Source: Rhizobiales bacterium GAS188 (lineage in GTDB: Bacteria; Pseudomonadota; Alphaproteobacteria; Rhizobiales; Beijerinckiaceae). From it: a DNA stretch of 64,000 bases. Below are positions 5,464 through 14,899 of the stretch, one piece after another. Position 1 is the first letter of the stretch, and each line of letters starts with the position of its first letter. Both the position numbers and the translations under genes were made by a program. The notes under the pieces were generated by a model that saw only the letters and a program-made list of their open reading frames with translations, ran no database searches and had not been told where the DNA came from. The DNA lies in assembly GCA_900104855.1 (NCBI GenBank), contig FNSS01000001.1:6519001-6583000 (forward strand), given 5' to 3'.

Positions 5464-6314
5464 CCGATGCGCGCACCGTCACCACCGCCCTCAGGCGTGT
5501 CGGCGCGACGCTCCCAGGCGCCGTCGGTCTCGGGATCGTCGGCGTCGTCGTGCTCGCCGCCCTGTTCGCGCCCCTCATCGTGACCGATGACCCCGATCGG
5601 CTCGATGTCATGAACCGTTTCGCTGCCCCTTCATGGCAGCACTGGCTCGGCACCGACCATCTCGGGCGCGATCTCTACAGCCGGCTCGTCTATGGCGCCT
5701 CGGTCGCCATGGCGGTCGCGCTCTCCTCGATCGGCTTCGCGCTGGCGCTCGGCACCTGTCTCGGTATCGGCGCCGCCTATCTGCCGACAAGCACCGAGCG
5801 TTTCATCCTGATCGTCTTCGACATCATCTCCTCCTTCCCGAGCCTGGTGCTGGCGCTCGCCGTGGTCGCTGTGTTCGGCCCATCGACAGCCCTGGTGATC
5901 AGCATCGTCGGAGTGACGCTCGTGCCGCATTTCGGGCGTGTCGCGCGAGCCCAGGTGCTCACCGTGAGGAACGCTCCCTATCTCGAGGCCGAGCGTATCA
6001 TCGGCGCCTCGGGGACACGGATCGTGTTCGCGCATGTCTTGCCGAACATCATGGGGCCGCTCATCGTGCTTGCGAGCATGGATATCCCGGTCGTCATCAC
6101 CATCGAGGCCGGCCTGTCCTTCATCGGGCTTGGCGTGCGCCCCCCGCTCGCGAGCTGGGGAACGCTGATCTATGACGGCTATGCCTATCTCAGCGACTCG
6201 GCGATCCCCGTCATCGTTTCGAGTGCGGCGCTCGGCATCGCGACGCTCGGGTTCACGCTGTTCGGTGAAGCCTTGCGCGACGCGATCGATCCGCGCATGC
6301 AGCGTGCGCTGTGA
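5460..6314 (+). CDS. ABC transporter permease, DppC type
   Basis: This second membrane subunit pairs with the DppB-type permease to form the translocation channel. The 284 residues begin with a cytoplasmic tail and one transmembrane helix, then FAAPSWQHWLGTDHLGRDLYSR, the hallmark of the DppC/OppC branch. The ATPase-coupling loop reads EAERIIGASGTRIVFAHVLP, and the C-terminal part has GLSFIGLGVRPPLASWGTLI. The start codon overlaps the upstream stop in ATGA, so translation is coupled. Length is normal for the family. Confidence 0.92.
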   Translation: MTDARTVTTALRRVGATLPGAVGLGIVGVVVLAALFAPLIVTDDPDRLDVMNRFAAPSWQHWLGTDHLGRDLYSRLVYGASVAMAVALSSIGFALALGTCLGIGAAYLPTSTERFILIVFDIISSFPSLVLALAVVAVFGPSTALVISIVGVTLVPHFGRVARAQVLTVRNAPYLEAERIIGASGTRIVFAHVLPNIMGPLIVLASMDIPVVITIEAGLSFIGLGVRPPLASWGTLIYDGYAYLSDSAIPVIVSSAALGIATLGFTLFGEALRDAIDPRMQRAL

Positions 6315-8364: not shown

Positions 8365-9615
8365 ATGGGCGATATCTTCAGGGACATCCGCAAGAAGGAA
8401 TATCTCAATCCGGAAGGCGCCCACAAACCGCTGAAGAGCCCCGTGCCGCTCGCCACGCTGAAGGCGGCGCGCGCCTATCGCAAGCAGCGCGTCGTGGACG
8501 CGGTCGCCCGGCATGGCTGCGGCGCGATCCTGCTCTACGATCCCTGCAACATCCGCTACGCGCTCGATGCCTGCAACATGCAGGTCTGGATGCTGCACAA
8601 CGCCTCGCACTACGCCTTCCTCGGTGCCGACGGCCACGGGGTCGATTTCGAATACAAGGGTTCAGAACACCTGGTGCGCGACATCGAGGTCATCGACGAG
8701 GTGCGCCCGGCCACCAAATGGTACTACATGTCGGGTGGCGACCGCCTCGGCGAGCGCGTCGAGAAATGGGCCGGCGAGATCGACGAGCTGATGCGTCGCC
8801 ACGCGGGCGCGAACCGCAGGCTCGCGGTCGACAGGCTCGATCATCTCGGCGTCGATGCGCTGCGCCGGCGCGGGGTCGAGATCGTGGAGGGCCAGGAGGT
8901 GGTCGAAGGGGCGCGCAGGATCAAGAGCGCCGACGAGCTCGAGCTGATGGGCTGGACCATCCGCGTTTGCGAGGCCGGCATGGCGCGCATCTACGAGAAT
9001 TCGCTGCCCGGCAAGACGGAGAGCGAGATCTGGGCCGAGCTGCATTTCGAGAATATCCGCTCTGGCGGGGAGTGGCTCGAAACCAGGCTTCTGGCTGCCG
9101 GGCAGCGCACCAATCCCTGGTTCCAGGAAGCATCCGACTATGTGTGCCGGGAGGGCGATATGCTCGCCTTCGATACCGACATGATCGGGCCGTATGGTTA
9201 TTGCGCCGATCTCTCGCGCTCGTGGACCATCGGGCATGTGCGCATGTCGAACACACAACGCGAATACTACGCAGCCGCGGTCGATCAGATCGAGCACAAC
9301 CTGTCGGTGCTCCAACCGGGGCTCACCTTCCGCGAATTCAACGAGAAGTCCTGGCGCATCCCTGAGAAATACCTCGCCCGCCGCTATGCCGTCGCCCTGC
9401 ACGGCGTCGGCGTCGCCGATGAATGGCCTTCGATTCCGCTCCATACCGATTTCGCCGGCGCCTATGACGGCGTTTTCGAGGAGAACATGACGGTCTGCCT
9501 CGAGAGCCTGATCGGCGAAGAGGGTGGACGCGAATGCGTGAAGCTCGAGACGCAGGTGCTGATCACGGGAAGCGGCGCAAAGCGCCTCGACAGCCTTCCT
9601 TGGGAAACGATCTGA
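8365..9615 (+). CDS. M24-family metallohydrolase, DddP-like (candidate DMSP lyase or aminopeptidase-P relative)
   Basis: This 416-residue protein has a creatinase/prolidase-type N-terminal domain (NIRYALDACNMQVWMLHN, residues 62-79) and a pita-bread C-terminal domain. The two-metal ligands are all recognisable: D270, D272, D282, H346, E380 and E395. D352 falls where DddP-type enzymes are thought to carry the catalytic acidic residue, and the block RTNPWFQEASDYVC also resembles DddP. DddP cleaves dimethylsulfoniopropionate, but many soil homologues have unknown substrates and plain peptidase activity is not excluded. The start at 8365 has GGAG upstream. The neighbours, sarcosine oxidase and an ABC importer, would suit an onium or betaine-like substrate. 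Confidence 0.8.
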   Translation: MGDIFRDIRKKEYLNPEGAHKPLKSPVPLATLKAARAYRKQRVVDAVARHGCGAILLYDPCNIRYALDACNMQVWMLHNASHYAFLGADGHGVDFEYKGSEHLVRDIEVIDEVRPATKWYYMSGGDRLGERVEKWAGEIDELMRRHAGANRRLAVDRLDHLGVDALRRRGVEIVEGQEVVEGARRIKSADELELMGWTIRVCEAGMARIYENSLPGKTESEIWAELHFENIRSGGEWLETRLLAAGQRTNPWFQEASDYVCREGDMLAFDTDMIGPYGYCADLSRSWTIGHVRMSNTQREYYAAAVDQIEHNLSVLQPGLTFREFNEKSWRIPEKYLARRYAVALHGVGVADEWPSIPLHTDFAGAYDGVFEENMTVCLESLIGEEGGRECVKLETQVLITGSGAKRLDSLPWETI

Positions 9616-11189: not shown

Positions 11190-11765
11190 TTAGGTGTGCC
11201 TGCGGAAGACCATCAGCCGGTCGTCGCGCATATACCATTGCGGGATTTCGACCACCTCGATGCAATCGAAACCGGAAACGAGCTGCGTGAAGAAGTGCGG
11301 GTCGGCGCTGCCACCCATCCATTCGCCGATATAGATGACTTGCTCTCCGCCATATGCATCGAGCGCGTTGGCGGCCATGCCGCTGCCCCATGGTGGCCAG
11401 CACAGCAGCAGCGCCTTGTCGGGATGGTCGCGCACCATGCGCTCATCGCCGCAATGGACCTCGGTCCATGTGAAAGGTGGTGGGTCCAGGTCGAATGCCG
11501 CGACGCTGAGGCCGGCCTGGCGCATCAGCCAGGTCCAGTAACCGCTGCCGGCGCCGGCCTCGACGACGCCGGTGGTGTGCTTGCGAATGGCCGCAATGGC
11601 CTCGTCGGTCGGCACAGCCCAGGCGAAATGTCGGGTGATGGTCGCTTTCAAGGCCAACCAGTCGGGCATCAGCAGCTCGGTCGCCGAAGGCGGCAGCAAT
11701 GGATCGCGTCGAAACGAACCCGGCAACGCTTGAAAGAGATCGAGATAGGGGTTCAATAGCTGCAT
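11190..11765 (-). CDS. Class I SAM-dependent methyltransferase-like protein
   Basis: The 191-residue protein has a Rossmann-type SAM-binding motif (VVEAGAGSGYW, near residue 67), an acidic end of the second strand (FDLDPPPF) and an unusual CWPPWGSGMA segment in place of the usual motif IV. The substrate is unknown. It lies 110 bp downstream of the borosin methyltransferase on the same strand, so it could be a further tailoring enzyme. However, a hairpin directly after that gene may separate the transcripts. Its stop lies 2 bases from the convergent MarR stop. Similar proteins are known to me only as hypothetical methyltransferases. Confidence 0.7.
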   Translation of the reverse strand: MQLLNPYLDLFQALPGSFRRDPLLPPSATELLMPDWLALKATITRHFAWAVPTDEAIAAIRKHTTGVVEAGAGSGYWTWLMRQAGLSVAAFDLDPPPFTWTEVHCGDERMVRDHPDKALLLCWPPWGSGMAANALDAYGGEQVIYIGEWMGGSADPHFFTQLVSGFDCIEVVEIPQWYMRDDRLMVFRRHT

Positions 11766-11875: not shown

Positions 11876-12802
11876 CTACCCGATGGCGGCGCCGGTCGCC
11901 CCTTTGTTCGCGGCAATCATGGCGTTCATCCGATAATAGGTCGTGGGGTCGCTACGGCTCTGATAGGCGGGCGGAATGTAGAGCGTGTTACCTGCGGATA
12001 GCGGGCCGTAGGCGAGCTCCGCTGCTGTGATCTGGCGAATCATCGGCTCGCAGCCGTGGAACACCGCCGCTTCGTAGAGATACATTGGATGCGCCGCAGG
12101 ATAGATATTGAGCAGCCTTTCGATCAGCAAGGGCATCGCCGACAGATCGTAGCCCATCGCTTTGAATGTCGCATCGCCGACCACGCCGATTTGCCAGAGC
12201 ACCACCGAGCTGGTCGGGTCGATGACGCGCCCGTTGAGCAGGAAGTCGGTCGCCTCGTAGGACTGGCAGCCATTGATGCCGGGATCGACGCCGAGATCGG
12301 CGAACAGGCAATCTTCCGACGAGATTCCGGGCAGCATCCGGGCGCTGTAGCCTTCGGAGCGGGCCCGCCGAATGGACTCATGCGAAGGGTAGACGAAGAC
12401 GCCCGGATGGCCGTAACAGGCCACGCAAGTCAGCATGCCCGCGCGTATGCATTCCAGCGTGCGCTCGACCATCTGGTTATAGGTGTCGATGCGCTGCTTG
12501 CCCTCGGCGTACATGCCGGTCATCGACTCGGCGCCCAGCGGATTGAGCTCCTTGAGCACGAGCTCCGCGACCGGATCGCCGACGACATACAACACCTTGT
12601 CTGCCTGCTTGATCCAGGCCACCGCCTCCATCGTCAAGTGGCCGACGGTGCGGATGCCGGTGCCGACGACCACCAACGAGCCCCTATGTGCGCCGTTGCC
12701 GGCAAATCCTTGGCCTGCAGATCCTTGGCCCGGATCGCCGGCGGCTGGCGTCTCCGTCCGCGCACGCGCCTGATCCGTCTTCCCGTTTGCCTCCGATACC
12801 AT
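11876..12802 (-). CDS. Borosin-type peptide backbone alpha-N-methyltransferase (split form)
   Basis: This enzyme belongs to the tetrapyrrole-methylase-fold family that uses SAM to methylate backbone amides of a precursor peptide. Aligned by eye with the fungal omphalotin enzyme OphMA, it matches SLVVVGTGIRTVGHLT (residues 42-57), YGHPGVFVYPS (130-140), ARMLPGISSEDCLFADL (154-170) and SYEATDFLL (181-189). The motif Y98-x2-GK-x-R104-x-D-x-Y108 reproduces the spacing of the catalytic Tyr/Arg/Tyr set of OphMA. The fungal enzyme continues into a clasp domain and core peptide; this one ends at YIPPAY plus about 28 residues, so it is a stand-alone catalyst. The first 40 residues are Gly/Ala-rich and probably disordered. 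A GAGGGG box precedes the ATG, 60 bp after the precursor gene. Confidence 0.92.
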   Translation of the reverse strand: MVSEANGKTDQARARTETPAAGDPGQGSAGQGFAGNGAHRGSLVVVGTGIRTVGHLTMEAVAWIKQADKVLYVVGDPVAELVLKELNPLGAESMTGMYAEGKQRIDTYNQMVERTLECIRAGMLTCVACYGHPGVFVYPSHESIRRARSEGYSARMLPGISSEDCLFADLGVDPGINGCQSYEATDFLLNGRVIDPTSSVVLWQIGVVGDATFKAMGYDLSAMPLLIERLLNIYPAAHPMYLYEAAVFHGCEPMIRQITAAELAYGPLSAGNTLYIPPAYQSRSDPTTYYRMNAMIAANKGATGAAIG

Positions 12803-12862
12803 TCCGATCCCCTCATGAACGAGTGAACATGCCGTCTACCTGCGCGAACCCATTCGGCGGCG

Positions 12863-14086
12863 CTAGCCCTGAGGTCCCGGGGTTACCAGTGGATGCACTT
12901 GCGGGAAGATCTGGGGAAGCACCTGCGGGAAGATCTGAGGATGCACCTGCGGGAAGATCTGGGGGTGGACGACCTGCGGGTGGATCACGAGCTGCGGGTG
13001 CACCTGTGGGAAGATCTGGGGATGCACCTGTGGGAAGATCTGGGGATGGACGACCTGCGGGTGGATCACGAGCTGCGGGTGCACCTGCGGGAAGATCTGC
13101 GGATGTACTTGCGGGAAGATCTGCGGGTGGACGACCTGCGGGTGGATGACGAGCTGCGGGTGCACCTGCGGGAAGATCTGCGGATGCACTTGCGGGAAGA
13201 TCTGGGGGTGAACCTGCGGGAAGATCTGCGGGTGGACGACCTGCGGATGGATCACGAGCTGTGGGTGGATCTGCGGGTGGACGACCTGCGGATGGATCAC
13301 GAGTTGCGGGTGGATCTGCGGGTGGACGACCTGTGGATGGACCACGACTTGCGGGTGGATCTGCGGATGGACGACCTGCGGATGGACCACGACTTGCGGG
13401 TGGATCTGCGGGTGGACGACCTGCGGATGGATCACGAGTTGCGGGTGGATCTGTGGGTGGACGACCTGCGGATGGATCACGAGTTGCGGGTGAATCTGCG
13501 GGTGGACGACCTGCGGGTGAACCACGACCTGCGGGTGGATCTGTGGAAAGATCTGCGGATGCACCTGAGGGAAGATCTGCGGATGCACCTGCGGGAAGAC
13601 CTGGTAAATCTGCGGATATACCATCTGCAAAGGCATGTTGGGGAACATCGTCGAACTCCCTTCGTAGGGCAAGGTTGCCTGGCTCGGCTGGCTGCGCAGG
13701 GCGGGCTCATCGGCCGCAGCGCCTTCGGGCGCTCCGGGCGGTCTGACCATGTCGACCACCAGCACCGCAGCCGGAGTGGGGGTTGGAGGCGCGAACGAAA
13801 AGCGTTGACCGCTGAGCCGCGCATGAATCGTCCAGGGCTGACCGCTCTTCAAGATCACCTGGTCGACGTCGCTGATGCCCGCCGCGCGCATGGCGGCGTC
13901 CGGGTCCTTGATGAAGGCGCCAAGCTGTGCCGGGTCGGTCGCCAGCGCGACCATGAAGAGCCGGAACTCATCCGGCGCAACGACTTCGGGCGGAGTCGCC
14001 GGAGTATCGGAGGGCGCCGCGCCCGATGCAGCCGAAGGAGAATCGCCCTCTTCGTCGCCTGCTCCGCCTCGCTTCTTCGCGCTCAT
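12863..14086 (-). CDS. Borosin precursor: leader domain plus giant His-Pro-Gln repeat core
   Basis: This 407-residue protein has three parts. Residues 1-37 are Lys/Glu/Ala/Pro-rich and look disordered. Residues 38-93 (PDEFRLFMVALATDPAQL, then SGQPWTIHARLSG) match the pattern of the OphMA clasp/borosin-binding domain: L..DP..L..F..D, then a Ser-Gly and Trp-x-Ile. After a Pro/Ala linker, residues 157-400 consist of about 50 x-Pro-Gln units separated by I, V, VV, LVI or VVV. The ATG at 14086 has AAGAGG 6 bases upstream; a TTG two codons earlier is less likely. The methyltransferase gene follows 60 bp downstream, as expected for enzyme and substrate. That the repeats are the methylated core is inference. 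Confidence 0.85.
   Translation of the reverse strand: MSAKKRGGAGDEEGDSPSAASGAAPSDTPATPPEVVAPDEFRLFMVALATDPAQLGAFIKDPDAAMRAAGISDVDQVILKSGQPWTIHARLSGQRFSFAPPTPTPAAVLVVDMVRPPGAPEGAAADEPALRSQPSQATLPYEGSSTMFPNMPLQMVYPQIYQVFPQVHPQIFPQVHPQIFPQIHPQVVVHPQVVHPQIHPQLVIHPQVVHPQIHPQLVIHPQVVHPQIHPQVVVHPQVVHPQIHPQVVVHPQVVHPQIHPQLVIHPQVVHPQIHPQLVIHPQVVHPQIFPQVHPQIFPQVHPQIFPQVHPQLVIHPQVVHPQIFPQVHPQIFPQVHPQLVIHPQVVHPQIFPQVHPQIFPQVHPQLVIHPQVVHPQIFPQVHPQIFPQVLPQIFPQVHPLVTPGPQG
12887..13618 (-). repeat. Higher-order tandem repeat encoding the HPQ array
   Basis: Seven tandem 45-bp units encode HPQ(LVI or VVV)-HPQVV-HPQI at 13223-13537 (residues 184-288). After a short FPQV/HPQI alternation come three 81-bp units at 12920-13162 (residues 309-389), each the 15-residue unit plus FPQV-HPQI-FPQV. 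The array therefore grew by duplication at two levels. The DNA is repetitive enough that copy number should vary between strains. Confidence 0.95.
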
Positions 14087-14899
14087 CGTCAACCTCTTGG
14101 GTTCAGATTCGCCGCTAAACGGAATTATTCAATGCGCAATAGGTCATCGCTCCGGAAGGTGCAGTAATCGCAAATATTGGTACGACAGTTCCCCTGCGGA
14201 GAAGCCCGCAAATTCGCAAGAATCTTCAGTCCCTAAGTATGCCGCCCCTATCGGCCAATCTGCGGATAAACGGTCATCCGGTGACTTCAGCGCGGGACGC
14301 CATCATTCAGGCGATCGGCATCGAATCTCGGCCACAAACGAATCTCGGCCACAACTGTTCTTGTGGTCCAATCTTGTGGGGTTGATTTCGCGTCTTCTCG
14401 CCATCGCTTGGTCAGCGAGCGTTAACGACAACGTCTCAAAGTCAGCGTTATTTAATCGTGATTTTTGCGAATCAGGAGTCGCGCTTAGTTGTCATTTATG
14501 TGTCATTTGAGCTCATCAACTGTTGATAATTCAAATAATACATAAATTTTACAATACTTCTTATCGAATAATAGAGAGTGTTTTGAAGGACGATCAACGG
14601 ATCTTGCCCTGATGACCGGTCTTGACGAGCCGCGGAGTAGAGCAGACTGCGGCTCCAACGGGGAATGGTGTTTAGCCGGCCTTCGATCAAATGGGGCTGG
14701 CGATCATGGCGACAACGCGATTTGCCGCTGCGATGGGGTGCTGCGCCGGATCGGGCGCAAAGTCCTTCAATCATTTGCTCGCGGACATCGGATCGCGACT
14801 GGCGCCTCCGTGAAGCTTACGCTTTAGAAAGCACCTCACGACAGAGCGGAAGCACAATATCCGATTGGAGTGGACATGTGCTTCCCTGGGCAAAAGCGT
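14087..14899. other. Gene-free stretch upstream of the borosin precursor
   Basis: About 813 bp without a convincing gene. The part around 14100-14600, especially 14480-14580, is markedly richer in A and T than the surroundings, which suggests foreign DNA or a promoter region. It contains the tandem repeat listed separately and the inverted pair CCACAA-CTGTTC-TTGTGG at 14349-14366. Short open frames here have out-of-frame-like composition and were not accepted. Confidence 0.6.
14322..14355. repeat. Two tandem 17-bp repeats overlapping a palindrome
   Basis: CGAATCTCGGCCACAA occurs twice head to tail (14322-14337 and 14339-14354). The second copy runs into the inverted repeat CCACAA-CTGTTC-TTGTGG. 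Placed about 240 bp upstream of the precursor start, it could be a regulator-binding site. Confidence 0.45.

Follow-up and report, generated by a model that had tools for sequence, protein, structure and literature searches.

Two adjacent genes on the minus strand of the window (the whole 64,000-nucleotide stretch of Rhizobiales bacterium GAS188 DNA that was analysed) very probably encode a borosin system, with a probability of about 0.93. One encodes a stand-alone alpha-N-methyltransferase, and the other, directly upstream, a precursor in which a borosin-binding domain (BBD) is followed by a Pro-Gln repeat array. The enzyme belongs to a known kind; what stands out is the great length of the repeated tail. 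The features of the locus, with positions counted from the first nucleotide of the window, are as follows:

12863..14086, minus strand: precursor gene, 407 amino acids, with an N-terminal stretch, BBD, V/I patch, linker and Pro-Gln array
13796..13969, minus strand: BBD, precursor residues ~40 to 97, from profile and predicted fold, with five predicted helices
13745..13771, minus strand: hydrophobic patch AAVLVVDMV, precursor residues 106 to 114, candidate canonical core by position
12866..13624, minus strand: Pro-Gln repeat array, precursor residues 155 to 407, from composition and repeat analysis
11876..12802, minus strand: borosin alpha-N-methyltransferase gene, 308 amino acids, with the domain from about residue 40
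12479..12511, minus strand: Y98-R104-Y108 active-site segment, from alignments of the enzyme
11190..11765, minus strand: downstream open reading frame (ORF), 191 amino acids, weakly resembling class I methyltransferases, membership of the system unproven

Both frames are open on the minus strand as an earlier note on this DNA had described them, and the layout, a separate enzyme gene with a BBD precursor upstream on the same strand, is the split borosin architecture that it proposed. The precursor starts with an ATG at 14086 and stops at 12863; the sequence AAGAGG lies six bases 5' of this ATG, which makes an alternative TTG at 14092 a less likely start. The 191-residue downstream ORF matches Pfam Methyltransf_23 below the cut-off (E = 0.0062) and was dropped as a conserved partner because no relative was found, at E values up to 10, among the ORFs of the 85 other methyltransferase loci compared. 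The pair is flanked on one side by an oligopeptide ABC ATPase, an M24 peptidase, a PLP-dependent enzyme and a MarR regulator, and on the other by a class II ribonucleotide reductase. The M24 peptidase (8410 to 9612) was rejected as a processing enzyme; it lies on the opposite strand about 2.3 kb away, with nothing supporting such a role.

In the 9.09-Mb genome (three contigs) the enzyme is present in one strong copy; a weak further match (E = 5e-4) is another PF00590 protein. A viral, phage or plasmid home for the locus was rejected. A phage search gave no match, the leader alone retrieved nothing from viral contigs, and 20 plasmid records carry relatives of under 60% identity. Two IMG/VR viral contigs (L101 and L102; loci of relatives are numbered with an L) carry a related borosin enzyme with 43% identity, and in L101 a BBD precedes the enzyme within one chain.

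In a phmmer search of PDB sequences, the enzyme matched dbOphMA (6.8e-59), OphMA (~3e-58) and SonM (3.6e-54), and the next match, separated by a wide gap, was a siroheme synthase at 0.007. Pfam places it in PF00590 (E = 2.4e-19), and the NCBIfam models for YabN and precorrin methyltransferases both match below their cut-offs. The AlphaFold2 model has a mean pLDDT of 89, with low values ahead of residue 40, so that the N-terminal extension, some 40 residues long, is probably disordered. The first 50 of the 222 Foldseek matches of this model under an E value of 0.001 are OphA, dbOphMA, SonM and MroMA, with E values from 1e-30 to 2e-26. The enzyme is thus, as the earlier note held, of the OphMA type and stand-alone.

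The active-site trio named in that note is present as well. Residues Y98, R104 and Y108 align with Y66, R72 and Y76 of OphA, positions that are mutated in PDB entries, and with Y58, R67 and Y71 of SonM, where the loop is three residues longer. Across 52 aligned methyltransferases, taken from the 86 loci, R104 is found in all 52, Y108 in 51 and Y98 in 49; the kinetic roles of the SonM residues are treated in PMC8429565. An incomplete catalytic set, with T95 (the OphA Y63 position) standing as the equivalent of SonM Y58, was considered and rejected, as the SonM alignment gives Y98 instead.

In a tree of 88 rows, the 81 borosin-locus enzymes, window included, separate from seven other PF00590 proteins of the genome (99/99), so that the enzyme groups apart from the genome's other tetrapyrrole methylases; this tree is rough, with a bootstrap that had yet to settle and long branches to the outgroup. 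Five loci (L087, L032, L033, L062 and L056) were left out of it. The sister rows of the enzyme come from alphaproteobacterial metagenome-assembled genomes (MAGs; L014 and L015, 99/94), with 62 to 63% identity.

The leader of the precursor is a BBD. A profile built without the window found it at an E value of 5e-19 as the single match among 1,101 ORFs of the window, and exclusion of the five nearest relatives as well still gave 7.7e-18. A profile that includes the window retrieves SonA (1.4e-14) and the OphMA clasp at residues 321 to 378 (~1.7e-7), with gallate and LigA-type dioxygenases as weaker matches. The model of residues 30 to 112 shows five helices with a mean pLDDT of 82 (91 to 96 in the helical core). 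The first 43 of the 50 Foldseek matches shown for this model are SonA BBDs or OphMA/MroMA clasps, and the top four have TM scores of 0.78 to 0.82 by target length; the domain is small, and the E values of about 0.1 to 1.3 include none under 0.09 and none that passes 0.001. Profile and predicted fold therefore bear out the likeness of residues 38 to 93 to the OphMA clasp that had been read from the sequence, and the leader aligns with the SonA BBD. Other searches gave little: no Pfam family was found for residues 1 to 112 at an E value of 0.01, and a single-sequence PDB search with residues 1 to 139 returned no related match and missed the BBD. Residues 44 to 75 also match the N-terminal domain of IniB in NCBIfam (E = 5.4e-6); this was discarded, with 26.3 bits against a cut-off of 40 and a far stronger match to the BBD profile.

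The BBD accompanies the enzyme in most related loci. An iterative profile seeded with residues 35 to 105 converged on 80 ORFs in 77 of the 86 methyltransferase loci; these include the window and three duplicates, and the relatives are the best 80 of at least 581 (79 loci), so that such proportions hold for the nearest relatives of the query. The window-free profile, which has many of these loci in its training set, found a BBD ORF in 75 of the 86 nearest-relative loci. Among the 78 BBD matches in these loci, 75 lie on the strand of the enzyme and 15 are at least 1,500 bases from it. Across 72 loci, the identity of the BBD correlates with that of the enzyme (rho = 0.24, as high in none of 999 permutations), a correlation that common descent alone would also give.

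The array spans 253 residues from the motif MVYPQ onwards (155 to 407) and holds 53 Pro-Gln pairs, so that the x-Pro-Gln array of the earlier note stands, at a slightly greater length than the 244 residues given there. It is composed of 22% Pro, 21% Gln, 15% His (about 38 residues) and 40% V, I, L, F, M or W, and contains no D, E, K or R, which leaves trypsin and Glu-C without a cleavage site. Its main units are IFPQ, VHPQ, VVHPQ, IHPQ, LVIHPQ and VVVHPQ, and V, I, L, F or M directly follows Pro-Gln in 52 of the 53 cases (the PQ-hydrophobic rule). The best DNA lag is 45 bases, or 15 residues. In the sense frame, four of the five best lags show more synonymous than other differences between repeats (14 versus 9, 16 versus 10, 13 versus 8 and 12 versus 5), the fifth (lag 90) giving 11 versus 14. 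One antisense shadow frame comes close, with 12 versus 12 at lag 45, and the strand is therefore settled by the homology of the BBD. The array also contains 37 copies of His-Pro-Gln, a motif known from phage display to bind streptavidin, and streptavidin might thus act as a purification handle.

The PQ-hydrophobic rule is found again in arrays of Microvirga, with 10/10, 6/6 and 9/9 in L008, L017 and L018 (25/25 together) and 9/11 in the fourth, L104, where the linker is counted; two further Microvirga sequences retrieved with L104 are identical to L017 and L018. In a Nitrosomonas MAG (L021), a separate 132-residue (IPPQFT)n protein follows the rule at 21 of 21 positions, and the arrays of L019 and L022 have no PQ-hydrophobic case. 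Because the repeats within an array are copies, the rule rests on about three lineages. With 325 residues after the glycine anchor of the BBD, the tail of the window precursor is the longest among the 64 BBD proteins of the nearest relatives that are unfused to an enzyme, the next having 264. The unusual length that had been claimed for the substrate holds in this comparison, but is tempered by the repeat arrays of other split borosin loci and by the long core of KchMA. Among the papers listed, titles and abstract openings made no mention of Pro-Gln arrays, which may be described elsewhere, most likely in Imani 2022 and Cho 2022.

The same parts occur in several combinations among the relatives. 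BBD and array are joined in one protein in the window, in Microvirga and in Myxococcota (VVYAAG and MVYGAG repeats), where the repeats of L040 and L037 start at the end of the BBD. They are neighbouring genes in L021, which has one gene each for array, BBD and enzyme. The BBD stands ahead of the enzyme in L024 and L062, enzyme and clasp are fused in L013 and L091, and enzyme, BBD and array are fused in L118 and L119, with C-terminal arrays of (AELNDA)n and (EQHETEQHEA)n. In L014 (5792 to 8063) and L015 (5732 to 8029), the BBD occurs without an array; a BBD protein with a 10-residue tail is followed by the enzyme and then by an MFS transporter, and no repeat ORF was found near the pair.

In L019 (4760 to 5992) and L022 (4916 to 6106), an arginine-methyltransferase-like protein with a C-terminal BBD lies directly ahead of the borosin enzyme. 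PRMT_C is matched at 9e-14 in L019 and at 8e-7 in L022, for which the best Pfam match is TRM5-TYW2_MTfase. Upstream of each lies a Pro/Arg-rich repeat protein, with RPPLIRPPLVFPI in L019 and FPIRQPV in L022. Only four residues (L019) and one residue (L022) follow these BBDs, which makes the Pro-rich arrays close by the evident substrate candidates. In these proteins the BBD may bring another type of methyltransferase to that substrate.

Repeat ORFs on the strand of the enzyme were counted in 24 of 83 loci within 2.5 kb and in 3 of 83 further out, after removal of the three duplicates (L087, L032 and L033); the two zones are unmatched in size, and 24/83 overstates the true arrays because it includes ORFs read as TPR from a 34-residue period (L039, L050, L054, L065 and L069), one pentapeptide-like ORF (L052) and frame shadows such as L053. 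Repeat tails are a recurrent theme among the relatives. Other variants were also seen. L047 (2792 to 6825) encodes on one strand a BBD protein, YcaO (E = 3e-62), TfuA (E = 4e-42) and a borosin enzyme, possibly a locus for a thioamide and N-methyl hybrid ribosomal peptide (RiPP). In the cyanobacterial loci L030, L036, L039, L048, L050 and L058, the BBD proteins carry an acidic tail with Pro (GDPGPDPLPDPDPFP and the like) and lie about 2.4 to 3 kb from the enzyme, and in L039 and L050 the 34-residue-period ORF lies between the two. In L020, a precursor-like ORF (5544 to 6020) has a masked stretch (N) right after the BBD, perhaps a low-complexity array.

Two candidate cores lie C-terminal to the BBD, the array and a hydrophobic patch, VLVV (residues 108 to 111), which the earlier note did not mention. 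The patch sits between the BBD and the array, near the core position of relatives with short precursors. Counted from the BBD glycine anchor, VLVVDM starts at +26. Among the 64 unfused BBD proteins, 39 have a window of six residues with at least four V, I, L, F, W or M after the anchor, compared with 34% of shuffled tails (anywhere), and 37 of the 39 windows start between +11 and +29. As 22 of the 39 start at or before +18 and overlap the last positions of the BBD profile, part of this signal may be the BBD itself. By our own count, which takes glycine 45 as the anchor, the SonA core (62 to 71) lies at +17 to +26, with L63 and I65 at +18 and +20, and the patch falls at the far end of this range.

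These positions bear on a reading in which the patch is a short classical core and alone methylated, the array being a non-substrate tail for display, binding or solubility. This is a possible reading, although we hold it doubtful. The patch lies in the band where L010 (IVLVVVI), L042 (VNVVVVVL) and L063 (GVLVVVVLP) carry V/I-rich tails, the excess of hydrophobic windows over shuffled tails points the same way, and a patch occurs at that position in Microvirga too, where the segment behind the BBD reads PQIVVVAGL. The early starts of many windows and the extreme position of the patch weaken the argument, and a short core leaves unexplained the PQ-hydrophobic arrays of three lineages, the array-only situation of L019 and L022, and the repeats that begin at the BBD end in L040 and L037.

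The balance tips slightly towards methylation that is docked by the BBD, begins at the VLVV patch and continues over the PQ-hydrophobic sites of the array. The precursor BBD would dock on the methyltransferase dimer, and the chain beyond it would be drawn through the active site in the N- to C-terminal direction. Backbone amides in the patch would be methylated first and hydrophobic residues behind Pro-Gln in the array thereafter, and the product would be a long, N-methylated, protease-resistant and His-rich polypeptide that stays uncut. For SonM and OphMA, PMC8429565 and PMC11285071 describe docking by the BBD, progress from the N- to the C-terminal side and methylation at hydrophobic positions.

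That the array is modified at all appears marginally the better supposition; modification over most of its length is a more tentative one. The rule shared by three lineages speaks for array methylation, as does the Microvirga segment right behind the BBD, which reads PQIVVV; the hydrophobic pocket described for SonM and the Pro-rich arrays beside the nearly tail-less BBDs of L019 and L022 count on the same side. Against it, a proline, itself not N-methylatable, occurs every 4 to 6 residues and may disturb threading, over 250 residues would depend on a single docked BBD, and the closest enzyme relatives, L014 and L015, have neither patch nor array. The fullest form of the reading takes the array as a polymeric core with a Pro-Gln-hydrophobic code and up to 52 N-methyl sites, giving an uncut N-methylated polymer, and it is put forward with some reserve. 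On this view, the code would have been retained, or have arisen a second time, in Microvirga and Nitrosomonas.

A borosin pair that has degenerated or been repurposed is improbable. In that case the enzyme would bind the precursor, methylation would be absent or irrelevant, and the product would serve as a structural or metal-binding repeat protein. This reading would suit an array rich in His and Gln without charged D, E, K or R, and would suit the neighbourhood, as no peptidase or exporter was found beside the pair on its strand among the window genes typed (six stretches); a search of three further genomes of the genus gave no match at an E value of 1e-20. The conservation of the active-site residues and of the whole domain, with both frames intact, argues against decay. 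The idea of a methylase from the cobalamin or siroheme pathway lying by chance beside a repeat protein is refuted for practical purposes, despite the shared PF00590 superfamily and the sub-cut-off YabN and precorrin matches, by the far better OphMA and SonM matches in the phmmer ranking, the matches of the enzyme model, the adjacent BBD and the separate branch in the rough tree.

Comparison with known systems places the pair among the split borosins, which PMC11285071 reports to be widespread in bacteria. It shares with the type IV system SonM/SonA of Shewanella oneidensis the separate enzyme and BBD precursor, the active-site trio and the BBD fold, and differs in the N-terminal extension of the enzyme and in the precursor: SonA has about 71 residues and two methylations, at L63 and I65 (PMC8429565), whereas the window precursor has 407 residues with a 253-residue array. 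It therefore does not fit type IV in the strict SonA sense of a short precursor of about 70 residues with a single short core. According to PMC8429565, SonM has a large hydrophobic pocket where the methylated residue lies, its backbone contacts are otherwise blind to side chains, and the isolated SonA BBD has been used as a competitive inhibitor. OphMA and dbOphMA share the methyltransferase domain and a clasp equivalent to the BBD, but hold enzyme, clasp and core in one chain, where the window has two genes.

KchMA, a bacterial fused type III enzyme, is reported with up to 11 modifications over residues 742 to 796 (PMC11395268). A long core, if the array acts as one, is common to both systems; that of KchMA is reported with many modifications, and KchMA is fused where the window is split. 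Type III cores alternate acidic and other residues according to the same paper, in contrast to the array with its lack of D, E, K and R. Class 3 of PMC11395268, with BBD and core together and the methyltransferase separate, fits the pair provided that the BBD protein holds the core. The closest counterparts in design are the Microvirga precursors (L008, L017, L018 and L104), which share the BBD fused to an array, the PQ-hydrophobic rule and the post-BBD patch, and whose enzymes are 54 to 57% identical to that of the window. Their repeats, of 15 residues and like PAGAVAPQVxPWQQM, have hardly any His and number seven to nine in three arrays by our own pattern count, and they differ from the His-rich repeat of the window.

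Backbone N-methylation makes peptides protease stable and membrane permeable and is chemically difficult. If the preferred reading of methylation continuing over the array is true, a repeat substrate of about 250 residues separates recognition, carried by the BBD, from a simple and designable site motif, and probes how far one docked enzyme works along a chain. The relatives that carry BBD and array on separate genes make the question of the array directly testable.
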